Positions 1 to 17,855 of a stretch of DNA of 20,931 nucleotides are shown in pieces; within the stretch, counting starts at the first letter, position 1, and every line of letters begins with the position of its first letter. Made by a program: the position numbers and the translations under genes. This DNA comes from a virus, in IMG/VR virus record IMGVR_UViG_3300043464_001351, positions 1 to 20,931 of that record; one strand, 5' to 3'. The notes beneath the pieces were generated by a model, which was not told the origin of the DNA, ran no database searches, and saw nothing but the letters and a program-made list of their open reading frames with translations.

Positions 1-242
1 GTATCCCCTATATTGCTATCATAGACAAATGTGGCGGTAAGAGGAACGTTCTGTATGTTTGCTACAGCAGACCAAGTTCCATCCTCTCTGCCATAAAGCT
101 CTCCATCTTCTGGGCCTTCCAAGAGAAAAGAATCAGCGGCAATTTTTCTGGTATTATTAGAATTGCCATCAACCGCAATAAAGTCCCCAGAATCTGGGGA
201 CGGTGCGGTTACTTCTAAATCTTTGATTCTTTTGTTGGCCAT
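1..242 (-). CDS. Tail-appendage protein, N-terminal part (partial, runs off the left edge)
   Basis: Eighty codons are visible from an ATG at 242, starting MANKRIKDLEVTAPSP; the rest lies outside the window. By eye about 47 of the first 75 residues match the start of the leucine-rich-repeat protein at 1528-2451, including KRIKDL, DFIAIDG, NNTRKIAAD, LYGR and TFVYD. The two genes therefore share an N-terminal module. Short N-terminal modules of this kind in phage fibre-like proteins usually attach the protein to the virion, so an anchor role is inferred. What follows the module is unknown. The start lies 5 bp after the stop of the 157-aa gene with an AAGGG stretch just upstream, so it is probably co-expressed with it. 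It is real coding sequence (conserved paralogue, open frame); exact function is uncertain. Confidence 0.8.
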   Translation of the reverse strand, partial: MANKRIKDLEVTAPSPDSGDFIAVDGNSNNTRKIAADSFLLEGPEDGELYGREDGTWSAVANIQNVPLTATFVYDSNIGD

Positions 243-247
243 AACCC

Positions 248-721
248 TTACAACAATTTACTTGCGGCGTCTTGCACGGTTTCTTCAAATCCAAACGGAG
301 CATTGGGCCAATCGTTGCGGGGTTCGGGATTGGCGGCGAATGCACCAAGAATGGCATCAAGCCACGAGCGGACGGCTGTGAGCTTGGCAGAAGTCTTGCC
401 AGCTTCGGCCAATTTACCCTCCAAATCCATCAATGTCACAAGACGTATGGCGGGATAGCCCTCGCGCTCAATATGCTTTTCGGCGGTGACAGCGGGTTTC
501 GGACGAGCGGCAATCAGTTGTTCGCGGTGCTCCGCCATAGTAACGAGTTCTCCATTTTTGTAAAAATAAAACACCTTGGGTTCGCTGGTTCGTCCAGCTT
601 GGACGGTTGCTGCTTGCTCGTCGGTAATTTCAACAACGGTTGCGCCTTCGGCTACGGCCTTGGGTTCTGTGTCGCTGATACGGTTAATTGCCCCTTTGGG
701 GCCGATAATTGCATATTTCAT
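248..721 (-). CDS. Hypothetical protein, 157 aa, in tail-appendage cassette
   Basis: Starts at ATG 721, inside the stop of the sulfotransferase gene (ATGA overlap), so it is probably translationally coupled. The N-terminus (MKYAIIGPKGAINRIS) looks beta-rich. The middle is charged and Ala/Glu/Lys-rich, and the C-terminal half (about residues 90-157) looks helical, with a tryptophan in SWLDAIL and a WPNAPFGFEETV stretch. There is no signal peptide or membrane segment. I do not recognise a family. Its place between a sulfotransferase and a fibre-like gene would suit a small virion protein or a fibre-assembly chaperone, but this is inference from position only. Confidence 0.75.
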   Translation of the reverse strand: MKYAIIGPKGAINRISDTEPKAVAEGATVVEITDEQAATVQAGRTSEPKVFYFYKNGELVTMAEHREQLIAARPKPAVTAEKHIEREGYPAIRLVTLMDLEGKLAEAGKTSAKLTAVRSWLDAILGAFAANPEPRNDWPNAPFGFEETVQDAASKLL

Positions 722-1518
722 AGTTCGTTAATCCATTTAAATGTTTGTGCCACTTGATCTGAAAGTTGTCTGCCAAGGATGTTTAGCCAGTCGGGTTCTA
801 CGGGTTCGACCTTGCTGCGGATTTCGTGGTCGCCGTAGGGCCAGCCAAGCTCATGCTCTTTAGTATATTGTTGCACATTATCAAAGTCATGGCGATCAAA
901 TTTTAATCCAAGATAATCCCAAATTTCTCCCATTGTTTCTGCGGGATTTCCCGTAAGAGATTCAAAGTGGACAAAATGAAGCTTGTCTTTGTAGCGGCGA
1001 ACGGCATCCGAAACGCGCTCTACGGCGATACCAAGCGGAGGCATTTGCAACCAGCCCTGTGCGCGTTTTTCCACCGTAGTCCAATTTTGCGGGGACTGTT
1101 TTTCAACTCCCGTAAAGGGAAAGGGATGGCTTCGCCATTTCTTCTCCAAAGAGCAAAGAATGCCGCGCATGTCGCGGACAGGAACCAAAACTTTTGCGTT
1201 GGGCCAGATGGCAAAGAGCATATCCAAGTGACCAACCCAGCTACGGCACTTGTCAGCCACAATCGGGCGGTCGGTCAAACGATTGAATGCATTTTCGCAT
1301 CCGCCCTTGACGTAATCGTAGAACAAGGTTTCACCATCCTTTGGATTCGGGATGGTCTTGAACTCCTCGGTCGCGGAGAACTGACGAGCGATGTAGCCGA
1401 TTTCATGGAGGCCGCTTGTTGCGGTGGAATGGACTTCGGGATTTTGCGCGAGAAGGTTCATTAAAAGTGTTGAACCGCTGCGCGGCAGACCCGATACGAA
1501 GTGAATGGTTTTACTCAT
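718..1518 (-). CDS. PAPS-dependent sulfotransferase
   Basis: 266 aa, ATG at 1518. Residues 10-17 (GLPRSGST) match the 5'-phosphosulfate-binding loop of PAPS-dependent sulfotransferases, followed by the usual LLMNLLAQNP helix. Residues 114-123 (VRDMRGILCS) match the 3'-phosphate-binding motif, with R115 and S123 in the expected places. HFESL at 184-188 followed by a DYLGL segment is the usual C-terminal pattern. These enzymes transfer sulfate from PAPS to hydroxyls or amines of glycans, proteins or small molecules. The acceptor cannot be read here. There is no signal peptide or transmembrane segment, so it should act in the cytoplasm of the infected cell. The length fits a complete catalytic domain. 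It sits between two paralogous appendage genes and overlaps the downstream gene by 4 bp, so a surface or virion target is plausible. Confidence 0.88.
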   Translation of the reverse strand: MSKTIHFVSGLPRSGSTLLMNLLAQNPEVHSTATSGLHEIGYIARQFSATEEFKTIPNPKDGETLFYDYVKGGCENAFNRLTDRPIVADKCRSWVGHLDMLFAIWPNAKVLVPVRDMRGILCSLEKKWRSHPFPFTGVEKQSPQNWTTVEKRAQGWLQMPPLGIAVERVSDAVRRYKDKLHFVHFESLTGNPAETMGEIWDYLGLKFDRHDFDNVQQYTKEHELGWPYGDHEIRSKVEPVEPDWLNILGRQLSDQVAQTFKWINEL

Positions 1519-1527
1519 AGCCCACGA

Positions 1528-2451
1528 TTATGGAACATTTGGATAGTTTGTCCACACGGAAACTGTGACGTTGGCTCCGCCAACACTTTGCCCCGCGCCC
1601 AAGGTGTAGCCCGTGGCGTCTGGGCCGATATAGATGTTGTCGATATTTGATGCGTACATGAAAGCATTAACTGCCACTTGTCCTATGGGTTGGTTGAGGT
1701 AGGCTGCTGTTAAGAAAAGGCAATTGCTGAACGCATAATCACCAATGGAGGTAACGGAATTGCCGATGGTTAGATTTCCTGTGAAGCCGTTGCAGTTGCC
1801 GAACGCATAATTGCCAATAGAGGTGACGGAATTGGGGATGATTAGGTTGCCTGTGAAGCCAGAGCAGTTACTGAACGCATAACTGCCAATGGAGGTAACG
1901 GAATTGGGGATGGTTAGATTTCCTGTGAAGCCGTTGCAGTTGCCGAACGCATAATTGCCAATTATGGTAACAGAATTTGGAATGGTTAGATTTCCTGTGA
2001 AGCCGTTGCAGTTGCCGAATGCGCCATCGCCAATTATGGTAACAGAATTTGGAATGACCAAATTACCTGTTAAGCCATTGCAGGAGTAAAACGCATAGCT
2101 TCCAATGGATGTGGCAGAATTGCCGATAGATAGTTGAGTCAAGTCACTATTGCTGTAGCCGAATCCCAAGCTTTGCCAATCATTAGGAATGTTGCCAACA
2201 ATGAATTGTGTGGTTTCAGCCGTGCCGTCATAGACAAAGGTTGGGACAATCGGAATGTCATCAGGGCTTGCGGCCTCTTCCCATGCTCCATCCTGACGGC
2301 CATAAAGTGTTCCATCGCTGGGGGCATCCTGCAAAAATGTATCTGCCGCAATCTTGCGCGTGTTGTTGGTTGCTCCGTCAATAGCAATAAAATCATCATT
2401 TGCTGGTGATGTTGCTGTTGCTGCTAAATCTTTAATTCGTTTGTCGGCCAT
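1528..2451 (-). CDS. Tail-appendage protein with BspA-type leucine-rich repeats
   Basis: 307 aa, ATG at 2451, preceded by AAGGAG seven bases upstream. Residues 1-75 are the module shared with the partial gene at the left edge. Residues 112-255 form about six 24-aa repeats of the form SVTxIGxYAFxNCxGFTGNLTIPN, which matches BspA/TpLRR-type leucine-rich repeats (LRR_5). Such repeats form curved solenoids that bind proteins or extracellular matrix. The C-terminal 50 residues (YLNQPIGQVAVNAF onward) look like a beta cap. No signal peptide is present, so a virion role is favoured over a secreted adhesin: N-terminal anchor, LRR receptor-binding part. A structural role rather than receptor binding cannot be excluded. 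Confidence 0.87.
   Translation of the reverse strand: MADKRIKDLAATATSPANDDFIAIDGATNNTRKIAADTFLQDAPSDGTLYGRQDGAWEEAASPDDIPIVPTFVYDGTAETTQFIVGNIPNDWQSLGFGYSNSDLTQLSIGNSATSIGSYAFYSCNGLTGNLVIPNSVTIIGDGAFGNCNGFTGNLTIPNSVTIIGNYAFGNCNGFTGNLTIPNSVTSIGSYAFSNCSGFTGNLIIPNSVTSIGNYAFGNCNGFTGNLTIGNSVTSIGDYAFSNCLFLTAAYLNQPIGQVAVNAFMYASNIDNIYIGPDATGYTLGAGQSVGGANVTVSVWTNYPNVP
1687..2118 (-). repeat. Tandem 72-bp repeats encoding LRR units
   Basis: About six 72-bp (24-codon) units in tandem inside the LRR gene. The middle copies are nearly identical at DNA level around the block coding GFTGNLTIPNS. Such near-identity allows copy-number change by recombination and can also collapse in short-read assembly. Confidence 0.9.
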
Positions 2452-2462
2452 AATATTTCTCC

Positions 2463-2978
2463 TTATGCGTAAATCAGTTTTGCGGAGCCTTCTCCATCAT
2501 CGTATAAAAGATCACCAACATCAACGCTATCGTTGTATTCGATGAAGAATGTTTCTGTTGGAACTGGCGGTGGTGGTGTTCCGCCGTTTAGTTCAACCAA
2601 AAGAGCCAATTGAATTCTAATTGGAAGATCAATGTAATATGCAAGAAATTGGGAAATGTTTTGATCTCCGTAGGTTGCTCCGAGAATCCAGCCTAAAGCT
2701 TGTTTTTCTGCCCAATCGTAATGAACGTTAGTATCTCCAGAAATTGCGTTGTAAATATCGCTCCAGACATATTGCTTGGGAAGAGAGATGTAATCGACTT
2801 CCGCCCTTGGGCATCCGTAAGCTACTGCAATCTTTGCAAGAAGGTATCGCTCTGGGAGTGTTGCATAGTCGCCAGTTTCGCCAAACCCTTGAACACCAAT
2901 AAGCCACCGCGCAAAAATCTCCCTTTTGGGGAGCGATGCGTTGATGGCTACTTGGTCATTTAGGTTCGGAATTGGCAT
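2463..2978 (-). CDS. Hypothetical protein, 171 aa
   Basis: ATG at 2978, 9 bp after the stop of the 79-aa gene, with only a weak SD-like GGTAAG. Residues 1-130 look mainly helical. Related aromatic segments occur around LPERYLLAKIAVAYG and LPKQYVWSDIYNAI, hinting at an internal repeat. A proline linker (TPPPPVP, about residues 134-140) separates this from a short acidic C-terminus (VDVGDLLYDDGEG). No transmembrane segment. I do not recognise a family. Its position between the capsid gene and the LRR appendage gene makes a head-completion, neck or tail role plausible. The stop codon is embedded in the SD of the LRR gene (TAAGGAG), suggesting coupled translation. Confidence 0.75.
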   Translation of the reverse strand: MPIPNLNDQVAINASLPKREIFARWLIGVQGFGETGDYATLPERYLLAKIAVAYGCPRAEVDYISLPKQYVWSDIYNAISGDTNVHYDWAEKQALGWILGATYGDQNISQFLAYYIDLPIRIQLALLVELNGGTPPPPVPTETFFIEYNDSVDVGDLLYDDGEGSAKLIYA

Positions 2979-2987
2979 CTTACCAGA

Positions 2988-3227
2988 TTAGGCCATGCCC
3001 ATAATGCGCTCGCCCATGTTGCCCATAGCGGCAACTTCTTCCATGTCTTCCTCTTCCATGTCTTCTGCGTCTTCCGTCTCGGCATCTTCAGCCGCAATTT
3101 CAACGCCAGCAATCATGGTCGGAACAAGCATGTCGCCTTCAAGACGAATGGTCACAAGCTCATCAAATGTATCGCCGTCAGCAACGCCTTCAGGCAATGT
3201 GTATCCTTCGGGAATTTTAATTTTCAT
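2988..3227 (-). CDS. Small acidic protein, 79 aa, after the capsid gene
   Basis: ATG at 3227 with GAGGAG eleven bases upstream. The N-terminal half (MKIKIPEGYTLPEGVADGDTFDELV) looks like a small beta domain. The C-terminal half is very acidic (EDAETEDAEDMEEEDMEE) and ends in a Met/Gly-rich tail. It is soluble, without a membrane segment. No family is recognised. The position next to the capsid gene suggests a small virion, decoration or assembly protein, but this is inference. The SD lies in the outer stem of a hairpin that follows the capsid stop, so translation is probably kept below that of the capsid. Confidence 0.75.
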   Translation of the reverse strand: MKIKIPEGYTLPEGVADGDTFDELVTIRLEGDMLVPTMIAGVEIAAEDAETEDAEDMEEEDMEEVAAMGNMGERIMGMA

Positions 3228-3301: not shown

Positions 3302-4522
3302 TCAGGAAAGGTATCCGTAGCCGCTACCAGCAGGGCAAGCAACCAGATCGTTTGCCAAGTTGCAACGGAGGTGGAGGATGTAGTATCCCCACTGAGGGAA
3401 CACTTGCTTGACGGCACTCGCCATCTTCGCTCTCCAGTAACCGCTGTTCTTGTCGGGGTTGCAGGTCTTGTCGTATTCGTTGATCCATTTGAAGTCGCCG
3501 CGATAATTCTGAGCGTCATAGACCAATTTGCCGACTTTGACGTTAGTGCTAGGAACAAGCCATTCAGCCGCTTTCGGGTGGAACACAACCGTAGTGGTGT
3601 ATTTCGCCGTCTTGTAGGCCGGGTTGATGACATACTTGGTTCCCTTGGTTGCGCCAGTGGCAACATAAGCCGGAACTTCGGTATAACCGCCAGCACCGTC
3701 ATCATTGAAGCGTTTCGGGAACGGACGGCTGTGGAACACAAAGCCACCATAGCTCTTGCGGGGCAGGAGCGAGGAGCCGTTTGCGCCAAGCAGATCATTC
3801 ACACGATCACTCCAACGGATGTCCTGACGAACATCGTCCTGAAGCTTGATAAGATTCTCAATCGTGGCGCGTTCAGCGAACACGTTGAAAACAGGTGAAC
3901 CATCATCGGTAACAGCATCGCCGTCATCGCCAGCGTTGTCCTGATAGAGATTGTCGTAGATCGAACGCAGCACTCCCGGCGTCAAAACGCTGGTCGGGGC
4001 GGTCGAAGGGAACGCAGTGTCATCTTCAGGCAAACCGGGGGCAACAACCATCTTGTGCTCCGAGATGTCGAAATAGTCTTGATCGTAACGCTCAATCCAC
4101 TCAACGTTCACGTTGTCGGCAAGGATTTTGATGTAGTTGTTAACATCGTCCACGGGGAACGCGGAGGTGCGAACATCTTCCAAGCAAATCCAATCCGACT
4201 CAATGGCCTGATGGCGGAGTTTGAAGGTTTTCTGATCGAATGCATAGCCAACCTTTTTGACGGGCGGCAAACAGGCGTTGTCTTGACCGCTAACGGTCGA
4301 AATACCAACATCTTCCCAACCAGAGCCAGTGGCTTTGGTGCGTTGGGCAATCGTGTTGGTGATAACCGCGCCCATGTTGTCAGGGAAAGCGGACTGCGAG
4401 ACAAAACGCAGATACGGGTCTTTATAGAGGCCAAGACGATGAGTGCCAAGGGCAATACGTCCGGTTTCTCTCTGGAAGTTATCATTGATAGCTTCGCAAG
4501 TGAGTCCAGTAGGGGCTGACAT
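3302..4522 (-). CDS. Probable major capsid protein
   Basis: 406 aa, ATG at 4522, with AGGAGA about ten bases upstream. It is called capsid by context and character: it follows the scaffold-like gene and portal in the usual head-gene order, has its own promoter, a strong SD and a terminator just upstream, and its length is normal for HK97-fold capsid proteins. Its coding sequence is visibly richer in C/G-ending codons than the neighbours, as expected of a highly expressed gene. The protein is soluble and mixed alpha/beta without a signal peptide. A long acidic helix-like stretch (about residues 120-160, containing VDDVNNYIKILADNV) could be the spine helix. I see no diagnostic motif, so the family assignment is inference. 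An alternative is another abundant head protein. Confidence 0.75.
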   Translation of the reverse strand: MSAPTGLTCEAINDNFQRETGRIALGTHRLGLYKDPYLRFVSQSAFPDNMGAVITNTIAQRTKATGSGWEDVGISTVSGQDNACLPPVKKVGYAFDQKTFKLRHQAIESDWICLEDVRTSAFPVDDVNNYIKILADNVNVEWIERYDQDYFDISEHKMVVAPGLPEDDTAFPSTAPTSVLTPGVLRSIYDNLYQDNAGDDGDAVTDDGSPVFNVFAERATIENLIKLQDDVRQDIRWSDRVNDLLGANGSSLLPRKSYGGFVFHSRPFPKRFNDDGAGGYTEVPAYVATGATKGTKYVINPAYKTAKYTTTVVFHPKAAEWLVPSTNVKVGKLVYDAQNYRGDFKWINEYDKTCNPDKNSGYWRAKMASAVKQVFPQWGYYILHLRCNLANDLVACPAGSGYGYLS

Positions 4523-4704: not shown

Positions 4705-4733
4705 AATCTACTATAATGACAATGCCTTGTCAA
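4705..4733 (-). promoter_or_regulatory. Sigma70-type promoter for the capsid gene
   Basis: Minus strand: -35 TTGACA (4728-4733, consensus), 17-bp spacer, -10 TAGATT (4705-4710, four of six consensus). Predicted start is near 4697. It lies immediately downstream of the scaffold terminator, so the capsid block can be transcribed independently of the terL-portal-scaffold block. Confidence 0.65.
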
Positions 4734-4734
4734 C

Positions 4735-4770
4735 AAAAAAAGAAGAGCGAGATTTTACTCTCACTCCTCT
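4735..4770 (-). terminator. Rho-independent terminator after the scaffold-like gene
   Basis: Minus strand: a 12-bp stem (two G-U pairs) between 4759-4770 and 4741-4752, loop GTAAAA, followed by a run of seven T (4735-4741). It starts about 20 bases after the scaffold stop. This is the clearest intrinsic terminator in the window. Confidence 0.88.
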
Positions 4771-8734: not shown

Positions 8735-10354
8735 TTATTGAAAAAGCGGGATTCTAAACGTGTTTGTTACGCCATTTGTTACAACGGTTATTCCCATCCA
8801 AGCAACCGCCGTATTAAAGTTGATTGCGTTAACGTTTGCCGAATTTGTTGGTATGGAATTTGTGGTAAAAATTGCAGCTTGAAAATTTGTGTTGCTTGTA
8901 TTGGTTAATGCTGGCAAGGGAAGACCAAGATTGGTTCTGGTAAGCGCGGCGTTTGTTACGGCAATTGCACCACCAACATTAAGGTTGGTAACAGCCGTAA
9001 CAACTCCAGTAGAAGTAAGCGTTCCAGAGGCGATAATGTTTGAAAATGTTACATTGTTGGTTACTCCAAGCTCAATGGCCGTGCGAAAATTGGTTACATT
9101 GGTGTTGGTGAGCCATGTTGCCCCAATACCAAGATTTGTTCTGCTAGCCGCAGCATTATCAATAGCATTTGTTCCCGAAAAATAAATAGGCTCAATATAT
9201 GAAATATTGTCAGCCAATGTCCAAGCATTTTCTTTATAAATGAGCCTTACGGCTTCGTCCAATTGGTTAAGAATAATAATATTGGTTGAAGACCCAAGCT
9301 GTCTAACTGCCGTTGTTGAATTCGTGTTTCCAGAATGAATTATGGTTGCCACATCTCCGTTAAATGTTGAGCCGTTTGTTGGAAGGGTAATGGTGTTTGT
9401 TATGCCGCTAACTGATGGCGACAAACTATACAAATACAAATTACGCGAGTTTGTGGCAACATTTGTTGATGTTCCTGTAACGTTAGTAAAACTTTGAACG
9501 GTAGTGCTAATTGGTGCTGATTGCCAAAAGTTTGTCGGACTAACAACCGAGCCATTGGTATTGACGAGAACGGGATTTGTGTTTGCCCCAAACAGGGCGG
9601 TCTGGAATCCGCTTGATGTCGTGTTCGTTAATGCGCTCCATCCAAGCCCCAGATTGGTTCTAGCGGTTGCTGCATTGCTTGCGCCAGTTCCGCCGTTTGT
9701 GATGGCAACAACGCCAGTAACGTTAGATGCTGTTCCTGTGGTGTTTTGATTTAGCGTTGGGAAATTCGTAAGCGCAGAGGCATTTCCATTTGTGGCCAAC
9801 GCACCAACAACGCCGCTAACTGAAATATTGGTTAGATTGATTCCATTGTTATTCGCCAAATTCGTTAGAGCGGAAGACGATGGTTGGAACGCTGACTCAG
9901 AATTTGTTGCCGCGCTTCCAAGACCGAGATTGGTTCTGGCGGTTGCCTCGTTTGTTGCACCAGTTCCACCGTTTGTAATGGCAATTACTCCGCTTACGTT
10001 AGACGCTAATGCTACCGTTCCCGCAATATTGCTTGCCGTAATGTTAGTAAGCGCAGAACCATTTCCGTTGGTTGCCAAAGCTCCAATCACCCCCCAAACG
10101 GGGATGTTTGTTAGTGTTGCGCCATTATTGTTAGCCAAATTAGTAAGAACCGAAGATGACGGCTGAAAAGCTGTAGAAGGATTGGTTGCGGCGGTTCCAA
10201 GCCCAAGTCCGCTTCTTGCATTGGCGGCATCGGCAGACCAAAAATTTGTCGGAGAAATAATAACGCTATTAGTGTTTACTACAACATTTCTTGTCTGCGC
10301 GTTAACAGAAGCAACAAGAAACAGGGCGGCAATAATGGCAAAAATATTTTTCAT
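8735..10354 (-). CDS. Repeat-rich tail-fibre-like protein with Sec signal peptide
   Basis: 539 aa from the ATG at 10354. A longer reading from TTG 10375 is rejected because the ATG lies 2 bp after the previous stop and begins a textbook signal peptide: MKNIFAIIAALFLVASVNAQ, with VNA as a likely signal peptidase site. The mature part is very rich in Thr, Asn, Ala, Ser and Gly. It contains a 92-aa repeat carrying ITNGGTGATNxATARTNLGLG, a motif typical of phage tail-fibre shafts, plus two later single motifs (ASRTNLGIG, LTRTNLGL). A long beta-rich unique part lies between. The shaft motif and location beside the portal favour a virion fibre. The signal peptide is unusual for a cytoplasmically assembled virion and could mean export to the periplasm or surface. 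Confidence 0.8.
   Translation of the reverse strand: MKNIFAIIAALFLVASVNAQTRNVVVNTNSVIISPTNFWSADAANARSGLGLGTAATNPSTAFQPSSSVLTNLANNNGATLTNIPVWGVIGALATNGNGSALTNITASNIAGTVALASNVSGVIAITNGGTGATNEATARTNLGLGSAATNSESAFQPSSSALTNLANNNGINLTNISVSGVVGALATNGNASALTNFPTLNQNTTGTASNVTGVVAITNGGTGASNAATARTNLGLGWSALTNTTSSGFQTALFGANTNPVLVNTNGSVVSPTNFWQSAPISTTVQSFTNVTGTSTNVATNSRNLYLYSLSPSVSGITNTITLPTNGSTFNGDVATIIHSGNTNSTTAVRQLGSSTNIIILNQLDEAVRLIYKENAWTLADNISYIEPIYFSGTNAIDNAAASRTNLGIGATWLTNTNVTNFRTAIELGVTNNVTFSNIIASGTLTSTGVVTAVTNLNVGGAIAVTNAALTRTNLGLPLPALTNTSNTNFQAAIFTTNSIPTNSANVNAINFNTAVAWMGITVVTNGVTNTFRIPLFQ
9650..10222 (-). repeat. Two-plus copies of a 276-bp coding repeat in the fibre-like gene
   Basis: The block coding for TNLGLG recurs 276 bp apart (for example the GATTGGTTC stretch at 9652 and 9928), giving a 92-codon period across residues about 45-235. 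Copies have diverged at synonymous and some non-synonymous sites. Confidence 0.8.
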
Positions 10355-10356
10355 TG

Positions 10357-10680
10357 TTACATTCTCTGAACCCAAACTTTTTCGTTGGTGGCCGTTGCAT
10401 AGTCAGCGGGACGCACAACAAGCGGGATGTTTTCTGCGGTATTTGCCGCTACCAGTTGATACGTTGATGGCGGGGTTACGTTAGGCAAAAATACACAAAT
10501 TCCTACGGGATAAGAGCTTCCAGTAGCGGTTGCAATAGACTTCAAAGAATTGCTGCCACTTCCGCTCACGGTTGTAATTTCGGTTTCAACGCGAAAAACA
10601 GAAGAGCTTGGTGCGCTGGCCTGTGAAGACGCAACACCAATCACGCTAGTAGATGGTAGCGGAATGCAAAGTTTGCTCAT
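10357..10680 (-). CDS. Hypothetical small beta-rich protein, 107 aa
   Basis: ATG at 10680 overlaps the preceding stop (ATGA), and its own stop is 2 bp before the fibre-like gene, so the three genes are one coupled unit. Composition is Ser/Thr/Val-rich and beta-like (SVFRVETEITTVSGSGSN; YPVGICVFLPNVTPPSTYQL). No signal peptide, no transmembrane segment and no recognised motif. A small tail or neck accessory, or a partner of the downstream fibre-like protein, is inferred from position. Confidence 0.72.
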   Translation of the reverse strand: MSKLCIPLPSTSVIGVASSQASAPSSSVFRVETEITTVSGSGSNSLKSIATATGSSYPVGICVFLPNVTPPSTYQLVAANTAENIPLVVRPADYATATNEKVWVQRM

Positions 10681-15586: not shown

Positions 15587-16900
15587 TTATTGGCCGTCAT
15601 TAAGTATTTGAAGCTGTCTAAGCTTTTTGGCGCAACCCTCAACCATGAATTGGCTCATCCCTCCCGCGATACACGGAATGTATTGCCTTGCGTGGGTCTT
15701 TCCGCCACAACGATCAATTCGCCCAATGGCTTGTCCCATTTTTACTGGTTGATCTGTTGGAAATATGTAGCTCACTCTTGGTCTGGTTCCTGTAGTGTCG
15801 TGGAGGCTAACGCTTGCGCCTCCCGCTCCGATGTTAGACAGGAGAATGTGTATTTCGTTCAATTGAAATTTTTCGATAAGTTCTTTTCGTTTTTTTGGAG
15901 ATTGACCACCAAAGAAGCCGTCTTTTGTTCCGAGGATGCTTCCAGCAAGTTCCCTGCTTTCCGTAAAAGAAAAGAAAGCGGCTACAGAGTTGCCACACTT
16001 TATGTCTTCTTGGATTCTTTTGCAGACATGAGGAACAAGGGCCATTTCTGAAGCTTTCCACGCTTTCATTCTGTTGCCGCGCCGAACGTTCATAATGATA
16101 TTTCTGTCTATTCCTTGGGACTCCATCCATCTGGCTTGCTTGTCGGCTTTCTCCCATTTTCTTTCAATCTCATAAAACTCCTCAACAATGAATGGAAGGA
16201 CTTCAATTGTTGTTCCTGCATACTCGCTTCCAAGGTCTGATTTTCTCATCCTGCAACCTCTTTGTGGAATAAGCTGCTTGTGAATTGCGACAAGTTTTTC
16301 TGTGTAGCTTTTGTCCCACCACCACCTGTCCTCGTCTTGGTTGTATCGGCATCCATTGCCATACATAAACCTTATCCAGTCATCTCCTCCAGAGTGCAAG
16401 CCTGTTATCCTTCCTGCAATACGCAGTTCAAGCGGAGAAAGAGCCAGCGTTGCGCTGGCGCAAATTATTGGTATGTTTTGCTTTATGGCCCCACCGATAC
16501 AGGCGGTTGTTATGGAGTCCATGTTTCGGGTTATCTGTGCCTCGTCTGCAATAATGATAATATCGCTGGGGTTGTTCCACTTGAAATACCTGTCGCCAAA
16601 CTGTCCTATGCTGGGCCTCCAGTTGCCCCTTACGGCTTCGTAAGACCCAATGTGGTATGGCTCCGCCCCGAAGTGAGAAAACGCCTTGTGCCACCCCTCA
16701 ACGCCAACAACAGGACAAAGCACAGCAACCCTGCGTCCAGTTTCAATGGCGGCAGCAAGGTCGCAGTAGGTTTTCCCCATACCAACCTCGCTCATGTCAA
16801 CAGCCCCAGCATATCCCCATTCTCTTGTCCCGTTTTGCAGGGCGCGTAAAAGTTGGGATGCTGGAACCTGTTGGTGGTTAAGAAGTTTGGGACTGAACAT
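15587..16900 (-). CDS. SF2 DEAD/DEAH-type helicase (SNF2-like)
   Basis: 437 aa, ATG at 16900, start lying 23 bp inside the end of the glycosyltransferase-like gene. Motifs in order: Q-like NHQQVPASQLLRAL at the N-terminus, Walker A SEVGMGKT (37-44), motif Ia near VLCPVVGVEGW, DEAQ box at 119-122, motif III ASAT (148-151), helicase domain 2 with an FFSFTESREL strand, GGQSPKKRKELIEKFQ, LLSNIGAGGASVSLHD and motif VI QAIGRIDRCGG (390-400). The GAGGASVSLHD and GRIDR pattern resembles SNF2/RAD54-type or phage UvsW-like enzymes. It likely remodels replication or recombination forks. Compact, complete for a phage SF2 enzyme. Confidence 0.92.
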   Translation of the reverse strand: MFSPKLLNHQQVPASQLLRALQNGTREWGYAGAVDMSEVGMGKTYCDLAAAIETGRRVAVLCPVVGVEGWHKAFSHFGAEPYHIGSYEAVRGNWRPSIGQFGDRYFKWNNPSDIIIIADEAQITRNMDSITTACIGGAIKQNIPIICASATLALSPLELRIAGRITGLHSGGDDWIRFMYGNGCRYNQDEDRWWWDKSYTEKLVAIHKQLIPQRGCRMRKSDLGSEYAGTTIEVLPFIVEEFYEIERKWEKADKQARWMESQGIDRNIIMNVRRGNRMKAWKASEMALVPHVCKRIQEDIKCGNSVAAFFSFTESRELAGSILGTKDGFFGGQSPKKRKELIEKFQLNEIHILLSNIGAGGASVSLHDTTGTRPRVSYIFPTDQPVKMGQAIGRIDRCGGKTHARQYIPCIAGGMSQFMVEGCAKKLRQLQILNDGQ

Positions 16901-17855
16901 TTTGCTTGCCCCAGCGTTTTGCAGCCACAGCTTTCATGTGATCACTTCTGCGCTCGCGCTCTTGATCTGAAATAACGCGGCGTTTCTTTTTTTCTTTTTT
17001 GGGTTTCAAATCAGATTTGGACGTTTTAAGGGTTGCCGAAACTGGCTTCGGGAACCCCTTTAAATTTTCGGAACCCGAAGTTTTCGCAAGTCCCTCCTGA
17101 ACCATTTTATGGAGCGAGCCGTCTTTGCATCCGTGGATAACCACAGCGTCCATTGACACAAAGCGATCTGGACAGGTTACGTTTTGTATTTCTTGCGCGT
17201 CTGGACTGTCGGCAAAAAACACAATTTTGCCGTCCTTCCTCTGATAGTTCACGCTTTTCCAATACGCACGAATCAGGGGCGTGTCTCTTGCTATTTTTAA
17301 AAACTCCCAACGGCAATACACGTCCCAAGGTTCTGGCTCGACCCCCGCAGATCGGTAGGACAGGTTGTAAGAATTTAAGTTTCTCGCCAAGGGGCAATAA
17401 TCAAAAAAGTTTGGCGGATAAATCGCGCTACCCACAATTAGCTTGTGAACTTTTTTCCCTCCGGTGGTTGTCCCCTCATTATACATGCACCCAAGGATTG
17501 AAGGGTTCTTGGCGTATTCGTCTTGCAAGATGTCGCACCATCCAGCTTTTACGGGAACACAATCTGGCTCCCAAAAATACCAAGGCTCTCCCTTGGAGTA
17601 ACATTCAACAGCGGCGTCCACAAACATCTGATTTGGGCCAAGCGGCCAACCATTAAATCCATCTTGTGCCACAATCCTGCCAACATCCACAAAACATTCT
17701 TTTAGGATTCCCGAAATTTGATCTACTTCTTTGGTTTCGGCTGGGCAACAGATGGTGGCTTTATGCCTTATGTTTGCCCCTATTGATTTGATGGATTTGG
17801 CTGACTCAATGGCAAGCTCAACATCTCCGTTATGATATGCAAATACAATATTCAT
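16878..17855 (-). CDS. Glycosyltransferase-like protein (GT-A style) with basic tail
   Basis: 325 aa, ATG at 17855, overlapping the previous stop (ATGA). The N-terminal half looks like a Rossmann-type sugar-nucleotide domain: MNIVFAYHNGDVELAIESAK, then WYFWEPDCVPVKAGW (residues 92-106), where EPD at 96-98 stands in place of the metal-binding DxD. A conserved-looking VVIHGCKDGSLH follows at 238-249, a common position for the metal-coordinating His. The last 60 residues are strongly basic (KPKKEKKKRRVISDQERERR), suggesting nucleic-acid binding or partner contact. The donor and acceptor are unknown. In a replication operon, glycosylation of modified DNA bases is one possibility; modification of host or virion components is another. 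Glycosyltransferase assignment is by pattern. Confidence 0.7.
   Translation of the reverse strand: MNIVFAYHNGDVELAIESAKSIKSIGANIRHKATICCPAETKEVDQISGILKECFVDVGRIVAQDGFNGWPLGPNQMFVDAAVECYSKGEPWYFWEPDCVPVKAGWCDILQDEYAKNPSILGCMYNEGTTTGGKKVHKLIVGSAIYPPNFFDYCPLARNLNSYNLSYRSAGVEPEPWDVYCRWEFLKIARDTPLIRAYWKSVNYQRKDGKIVFFADSPDAQEIQNVTCPDRFVSMDAVVIHGCKDGSLHKMVQEGLAKTSGSENLKGFPKPVSATLKTSKSDLKPKKEKKKRRVISDQERERRSDHMKAVAAKRWGKQNVQSQTS

Follow-up and report, generated by a model that had tools for sequence, protein, structure and literature searches.

The virus record IMGVR_UViG_3300043464_001351 of the IMG/VR database (positions 1 to 20,931; hereafter the window, meaning the whole stretch of 20,931 nucleotides analysed, which is the complete record) encodes a sulfotransferase (ST) directly downstream of a fibre-type gene with a tip of leucine-rich repeats (LRR). 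Comparison with other viral contigs, together with a structure model, shows that this enzyme belongs to one clade of viral STs, that the clade is linked to LRR genes, that its predicted fold is nearest to the protein-tyrosine STs, and that the LRR-ST pair takes part in modular exchange. We hold it to be an even proposition that the pair belongs to a mobile adhesin and sulfotransferase cassette of uncultured phages, in which a cytosolic enzyme adds sulfate to the tip of the LRR fibre before or during assembly.

Four open reading frames (ORFs) on the minus strand make up the unit in the window: the LRR fibre-type gene (1528-2451, 307 aa), the gene of the ST, which depends on 3'-phosphoadenosine 5'-phosphosulfate (PAPS) (718-1518, 266 aa), a gene for a 157-aa protein (248-721), and a second gene with the same N-terminal anchor module as the first (3-242, 80 aa), which is cut by the window edge. 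A gap of 9 nt separates the LRR gene from the ST gene, the ST gene overlaps the 157-aa gene by 4 nt (718-721), and a further 5 nt lead to the gene at 3-242. A previous inspection of the letters and ORFs of this DNA (the sequence-only reading) had placed the ST and the 157-aa protein between two genes in one coupled unit, and the spacing of the ORFs bears this out. Across phages, the constant core of the proposed cassette would be a fibre-type protein tipped with BspA-type LRRs, with an ST resembling the protein-tyrosine sulfotransferases (TPST) encoded next and often a small protein of tail-fibre-assembly type after it.

Linkage of the sulfotransferase clade to LRR genes

Scanning of viral contigs with the window ST retrieved 42 loci (denoted by L numbers), including 41 at 80-99% identity and L043, a 41-residue fragment at 56%. 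A scan with a wider alignment detected at least 578 viral ST relatives, 80 of which were returned. Five of the 106 sequences were left out of the ST tree, namely L209 (stop codon in the match range) and the fragments L042, L043, L197 and L198 (<230 aa); near-duplicates were then removed. In the resulting midpoint-rooted tree of 87 sequences, 62 fell into one group with support of 100/99, and 25 were placed outside it. The relatives with at least 53% identity form one clade, which was found only in viral contigs.

The 77 clade contigs were chosen by identity and include the four ST fragments too short for the tree. Six contigs have no sequence upstream of the ST; each of the other 71, which are decidable, carries an LRR gene upstream on the same strand. 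The LRR gene lies within 400 nt of the ST in 69 contigs (68 by ORF calling, and L184 by a tblastn match reaching the ST start), and the gap is -4 to 90 nt in 65 of the 71, with L184 counted. Farther LRR genes were found in L192 (about 1.75 kb upstream) and in L012 (3.3 kb upstream). A profile hidden Markov model (HMM) of the tip also detected an LRR reading frame in 71 of the 77 clade loci and missed only the six that lack upstream sequence. The link persists over ST identities from 99% to 53%. Related phages in which the ST is never near appendage genes were sought within the clade, and the 71 decidable contigs hold no such case. The linkage agrees with the sequence-only reading, which had proposed a modular host-recognition cassette with an ST beside appendage-type genes.

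The contigs are diverse in their surroundings. When the LRR, ST and chaperone-like genes were excluded, the flanking genes formed 25 groups at a threshold of two or more shared proteins, and 31 groups at three or more. A threshold of one shared flanking protein joins 71 of the 77 contigs into a single group; few flanking genes are present in some loci.

Some clade contigs contain additional genes. In L012 (4243-7506), four more ORFs lie between the LRR gene and the ST, one of which encodes a P-loop protein that looks by eye to be of the sulfotransferase type (MKKRIKIFGLPRSGTNLLEH); the cassette may thus take in further cargo. A second, different ST-like gene stands in tandem in L170 (5298 onward) and L207 (6171 onward), as judged by eye from the N-terminal motif.

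Outside the clade, the tip profile HMM found no LRR in the 29 outgroup ST loci (28 at 35-43% identity, and L199), and the repeat pattern found no gene with three or more repeats in the 28 loci. The STs at 35-43% identity are therefore not linked to LRR genes, and only some of them follow fibre-like genes. In eight of the 28 loci (L213, L214, L216, L217, L219, L223, L225 and L226) the ST directly follows a fibre-type protein, and these eight proteins have another C-terminal domain in common by eye (ending like TIRWVAHVQGIEIAYG). For the L216 protein, which a loose pattern had labelled LRR-like in the tree, Pfam finds Mtd_N and no LRR_5. Since eight of the outgroup STs directly follow this other shared domain, in one case with an Mtd_N anchor, the pairing of a fibre tip with an ST might be a wider habit.

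More distant STs were found in named phages (10 records at 24-32% identity) and on plasmids (16 records, all under 60%, with 10 listed at 28-30%). A bacterial origin of the ST was considered; two scans of genome contigs, able to detect only close relatives, yielded 53 and 13 pattern matches, none of them a relative. The Synechococcus phages S-SKS1, S-SCSM1 and S-SRM01 encode STs of the same Pfam superfamily, which stand with marine single-cell STs and are distant (24-30%); the annotation of these three loci shows neither an LRR nor a fibre gene adjacent to the ST. STs of this superfamily are also described in OM43 phages, where the function of STs in phages is called unclear (PMC10580990).

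Exchange of the anchor module

The 307-aa protein of the window is a BspA-type LRR_5 protein (Pfam E 2.5e-40; 137.7 bits against a cut-off of 27.7). It is composed of an N-terminal anchor module (2227-2451), an LRR_5 tip (roughly 1627-2157) and a C-terminal cap ending in TNYPNVP. Residues 38-97 match the tail fiber family phrog_15437 (7.7e-6), and a match to Fibritin_C is below the cut-off. Among the partner proteins of the clade STs, 53 remained after dereplication; without the fragments L024 and L183, all 51 scanned match Pfam LRR_5 (E<=0.01), which also confirms L172 as an LRR partner. Tail, fibre or virion PHROGs, among the 25 of 50 families listed, each match one or few of the 51 proteins.

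The N-terminal modules of the genes at 1528-2451 and 3-242 share 46 of 75 identical residues and 57 of 75 similar ones by BLASTP (E 1e-31), in agreement with the sequence-only reading, which had described a common module of about 75 residues with some 47 identities counted by eye. The cut gene at 3-242 is complete in the near-identical contig L003 (9277-10197), where it encodes 306 aa with six LRR-type repeats (by pattern only). Because both carry an LRR-type tip, the two flanking genes are, judged from their sequences, two copies of the same kind of appendage. The proposal that different receptor-binding parts use one docking module does not fit this arrangement; across phages, it is the LRR tip and the ST that are constant, whereas the docking module changes. 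The regions before the first repeat fell into 14 groups by BLASTP among 46 clade proteins, although these pieces are short, and the grouping may therefore separate related anchors or link unlike ones. At the level of sequence, the LRR-ST core is grafted onto different N-terminal anchors in different phages, and the pair of tip and enzyme moves between them as a unit.

Of the 25 viral loci in which the anchor module itself was detected, eight have it joined to an LRR tip, and every one of these has an ST; in the other 17 neither an LRR tip nor an ST was seen (five genes are cut by the locus end, three are followed by only 163-323 nt, and nine are decidable with at least 846 nt). The expected co-occurrence of module and ST therefore stands where the module carries an LRR tip and fails where it does not. 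On this evidence the ST follows the LRR tip, and not the docking module, because an ST was seen in all eight loci with module and LRR tip and in none of the 17 with the module alone.

Counts from the side of the tip gave a different proportion. A degenerate DNA pattern for one common repeat matched at least 120 viral loci, 106 of which have an ORF with three or more repeats. An ST is present in 21 of the 78 decidable loci among them (those with enough downstream sequence, or with an ST), and in 13 of 54 decidable loci within a subset of 80. A profile of the C-terminal cap (last 60 residues) matched 24 viral loci, 22 of them on ST contigs; of the other two, L142 runs off the contig end and L149 has no ST. 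This profile was built only from ST-linked LRR proteins and is hence biased towards them.

The insertion site was compared in loci that hold a relative of the presumed capsid protein, using the best 80 of 114. Of these 80, 74 span the site between the gene for a 171-aa protein (2463-2978, minus strand, in the window), which forms the left flank of the insertion, and a gene of 90-94 aa. The LRR gene and the ST are both present at this site in four loci and both absent in 70; neither occurs alone. An ST also occurs in a fifth locus, L046, whose sequence does not span this site. Where relatives lack the cassette, the C-terminal part of the 171-aa gene is often longer and variable, and for this reason the site looks like a variable host-recognition locus in the sequences compared. 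In three loci (L055 11302-12012, L059 2778-3491 and L060 5593-6306), a gene of 236-237 aa lies between the capsid gene and an 80-aa gene; its product starts with MKKYIQLKHGTAIIDE or MNKYIQLKHGTAIIDE and looks like an HNH-type endonuclease.

Predicted fold of the sulfotransferase

The 266-aa protein matches Sulfotransfer_3 (1.2e-18; 68.6 bits against a cut-off of 27) and Sulfotransfer_1 (1.6e-11; 44.5 against 22) in Pfam, and phrog_27463 (1.6e-29). A positive residue in the 5' PAPS motif and a Ser in the 3' motif are given as ST features in PMC6637879. In 55 viral sequences, R13 of the 5' motif is at least 90% conserved and S123 of the 3' motif is invariant. Between the two motifs, H38, E39 and E52 are invariant in 30 clade STs and are candidates for the catalytic base.

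An AlphaFold2 (AF2) model based on the 55 viral sequences reached a pLDDT of 92.1 and a pTM of 0.90; an earlier model, built from 22 close sequences, was discarded for its low pLDDT of 53.9. In a Foldseek search with the model, ranks 1 to 12 are TPST1 or TPST2, and the list also holds 3-OST and NDST. VIA-align ranks 1 to 7 are all TPST (Z 19.4-20.0, root mean square deviation 3.8-4.1, 237-240 residues aligned), followed by CurM (16.1), an olefin-synthase domain (15.4) and glycan 3-O-sulfotransferases (about 14). TPST likewise came first in a profile search of PDB sequences. The modelled fold is therefore nearest to the protein-tyrosine STs. It shares with TPST1 and TPST2 (PDB 5wrj, 5wri and 3ap1) the predicted fold, the Arg of the 5' PAPS motif and the Ser of the 3' motif; however, the window ST is a phage protein only 15-18% identical to them with no visible membrane anchor, and a likeness in substrate would be a prediction from the fold, which by itself does not establish it.

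No signal peptide or leader is visible by eye in the ST, and the AF2 model begins directly with the first strand; the enzyme should therefore encounter its acceptor in the cytosol, which is where fibre proteins fold. No APS (adenosine 5'-phosphosulfate) kinase was found in the 34 ST-bearing virus records, some of which are fragments, and so PAPS probably comes from the host. The ST should thus work in the host cytosol with host PAPS. A comparable gene arrangement is known from the RaxX-RaxST system of Xanthomonas, in which the gene for a cytoplasmic bacterial protein-tyrosine ST lies next to that of its substrate, an extracellular recognition protein (PMC6637879, PMC9372746); the latter paper also calls such enzymes sparse in bacteria. 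The likeness drawn here is one of gene arrangement; RaxX is a small secreted peptide accompanied by export genes, whereas the partner here is an LRR fibre-type phage protein.

The fibre-assembly-like protein

The 157-aa protein belongs to a family starting with MKYA, which in 45 of 74 decidable contigs is encoded no more than 500 nt from the ST. Among 21 aligned members, five match Phage_tail_APC (best 7.9e-18), one matches DUF4376 (2.1e-21), and five match the PHROG tail fiber assembly family phrog_4912. For the member in the window, no significant match to Phage_tail_APC, DUF4376 or a tail-fiber-assembly PHROG was obtained, so that its naming as a member of a tail-fibre-assembly-like family rests on the sequence alignment of the family. 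Modules of a phage fibre and its assembly chaperone (Phage_tail_APC, DUF4376, PHROG tail fiber assembly) likewise combine a fibre-type gene, whose tip is exchangeable, with a small chaperone-like gene; here an ST is added, which is inherited together with the LRR tip and usually lies between the tip gene and the chaperone-like gene.

Possible acceptors of sulfation

The cassette might act as follows. The unit would be transcribed together with the capsid gene from a promoter-like site (a consensus match only). The LRR fibre protein would be made, and the ST would take PAPS from the host and sulfate the tip in the cytosol, with tyrosine as the likeliest acceptor. The chaperone-like protein may help in fibre assembly, and the released virions would then carry a sulfated receptor-binding tip. 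The appendage is favoured over the host surface as the target, because the TPST-like fold and the neighbouring fibre-assembly-like gene both lean that way. A stricter form of this proposal, namely that a dedicated phage protein-tyrosine ST sulfates its own receptor-binding fibre tip and that the pair is a transferable unit for any virion anchor, is offered tentatively, at well below even expectation.

Several observations weigh against sulfation of the tip. LRR tips without an ST are common (57 of the 78 decidable loci), L149 has an LRR gene and a chaperone-like gene without an ST, and the cassette is absent from 70 of the 74 relatives in the phage family of the window. From the first two points it follows that sulfation is not needed for folding. 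In TPST, the catalytic base is held by the GEE stretch; the HMMER alignment places no Glu opposite this stretch in the phage enzyme, where 'atatS' stands instead, and the base is possibly at another position. No acceptor residue was found in the LRR tips, although all 53 tips hold four or more Tyr, and by eye no possible acceptor residue is common to all types of C-terminal cap. The Tyr at the xYAF repeat position was tried as a proof of the acceptor, being commoner in the ST-linked LRRs (38.5% against 21.4%), and was not counted; several other residues differ as strongly or more, and the total Tyr is lower in the ST-linked LRRs, so that the enrichment may reflect ancestry. An HMM of the MKYA family matched none of the 28 outgroup ST loci, which is a weak negative since the HMM was built from clade neighbours. 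The LRR proteins are known here from genes alone, their place in the virion being deduced, and the contigs come from uncultured phages, many of them as fragments.

A substrate on the host side would account equally well for an ST that accompanies the tip rather than the anchor, and for the movement of the pair as a unit. The ST could sulfate a host surface glycan, or a cytosolic precursor, recognised by the LRR tip, and infected cells and debris would thereby lose their capacity to bind virions or additional phages. The gene pair would in this case comprise a grip together with the means of masking its receptor. The presence of glycan STs (3-OST, NDST) in the Foldseek list is compatible with this, and in the Synechococcus phage S-SRM01 the distant ST (26%) is followed by a glycosyltransferase gene in second place downstream and by a nucleotide-sugar epimerase gene in fourth place. 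However, 3-OST and other glycan enzymes scored about 14 in Z against 19.4-20.0 for the protein-tyrosine enzymes, and the genes follow capsid-region genes and often adjoin the fibre-assembly-like gene. No constant glycan-modifying neighbour was seen by eye in the locus listings, where no family search of all neighbours was made. Modification of the host surface, and with it the masking of the receptor, is considered rather unlikely, although it is the chief rival of tip sulfation.

Two further explanations were weighed. Repeat genes recombine readily, and LRR genes often occur without an ST in the counts above; the ST might have been inherited with the LRR gene through recombination at conserved ends, acting elsewhere with no joint task. 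The link should then break in some of the many groups, whereas it holds in all 71 decidable contigs, across 14 anchor groups and about 25 flanking-gene groups and from 99% to 53% ST identity; such hitchhiking is judged improbable. Viral STs have also been listed as auxiliary metabolic genes, or suspected of nucleotide or protein modification, in PMC12285232, PMC8290583 and PMC10829341, and the ST of Sinorhizobium phage AP-20-A is placed among replication genes in PMC13299392. For the present clade, a metabolic or nucleic-acid-modifying role seems more improbable still, as its STs adjoin adhesin and fibre-assembly-like genes, none of the 34 records has an APS kinase, and the nearest fold is protein-modifying. 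Sulfation of the fibre tip therefore remains the favoured reading.

Other features of the window

All features below lie on the minus strand. The 406-aa protein (3302-4522) has no significant family match, and is presumed to be the major capsid protein because of its size and its place after scaffold- and portal-like genes. A 79-aa acidic protein (2988-3227) is encoded between this gene and the 171-aa gene. Ahead of the capsid gene and the LRR-ST unit is a sigma-70-like promoter (4705-4733; TTGACA, 17 nt, TAGATT), which rests on the consensus match; 10 such sites were found in the window against 6.6 expected from shuffles. A terminator-like hairpin (4741-4770; 12 pairs and a T-run) is located immediately upstream of this promoter, and 13 such hairpins were found against 7.6 expected. 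No Rfam family at the gathering threshold and no tRNA were detected in the window.

Between the portal-like and terminase genes, a 546-aa fibre-like repeat protein with PHROG tail fiber matches is encoded (8735-10375). By eye, it has a secretion-signal-like stretch near its start (MKNIFAIIAALFLVASVNAQ); a long protein in the locus of a relative (L104 6054-7979) likewise has a lipoprotein-like leader. A 325-aa protein (16878-17855) resembles a glycosyltransferase by eye.

Implications

The module of phage fibre and chaperone with a dedicated ST appears to be a new arrangement; among the open-licence papers listed, judged by title or start of the abstract, no work on the pairing of an LRR fibre tip with an ST in phages was found. 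If the tip is indeed sulfated, it would be, to our knowledge, the first case in bacteria of a viral receptor-binding protein that a viral enzyme sulfates. The phages would add a source of TPST-related enzymes together with their likely acceptor. The strict pairing of one ST clade with one type of fibre tip gives the enzyme a concrete and testable role in host recognition; if this role is confirmed, a phage could install a sulfated grip on any virion anchor.

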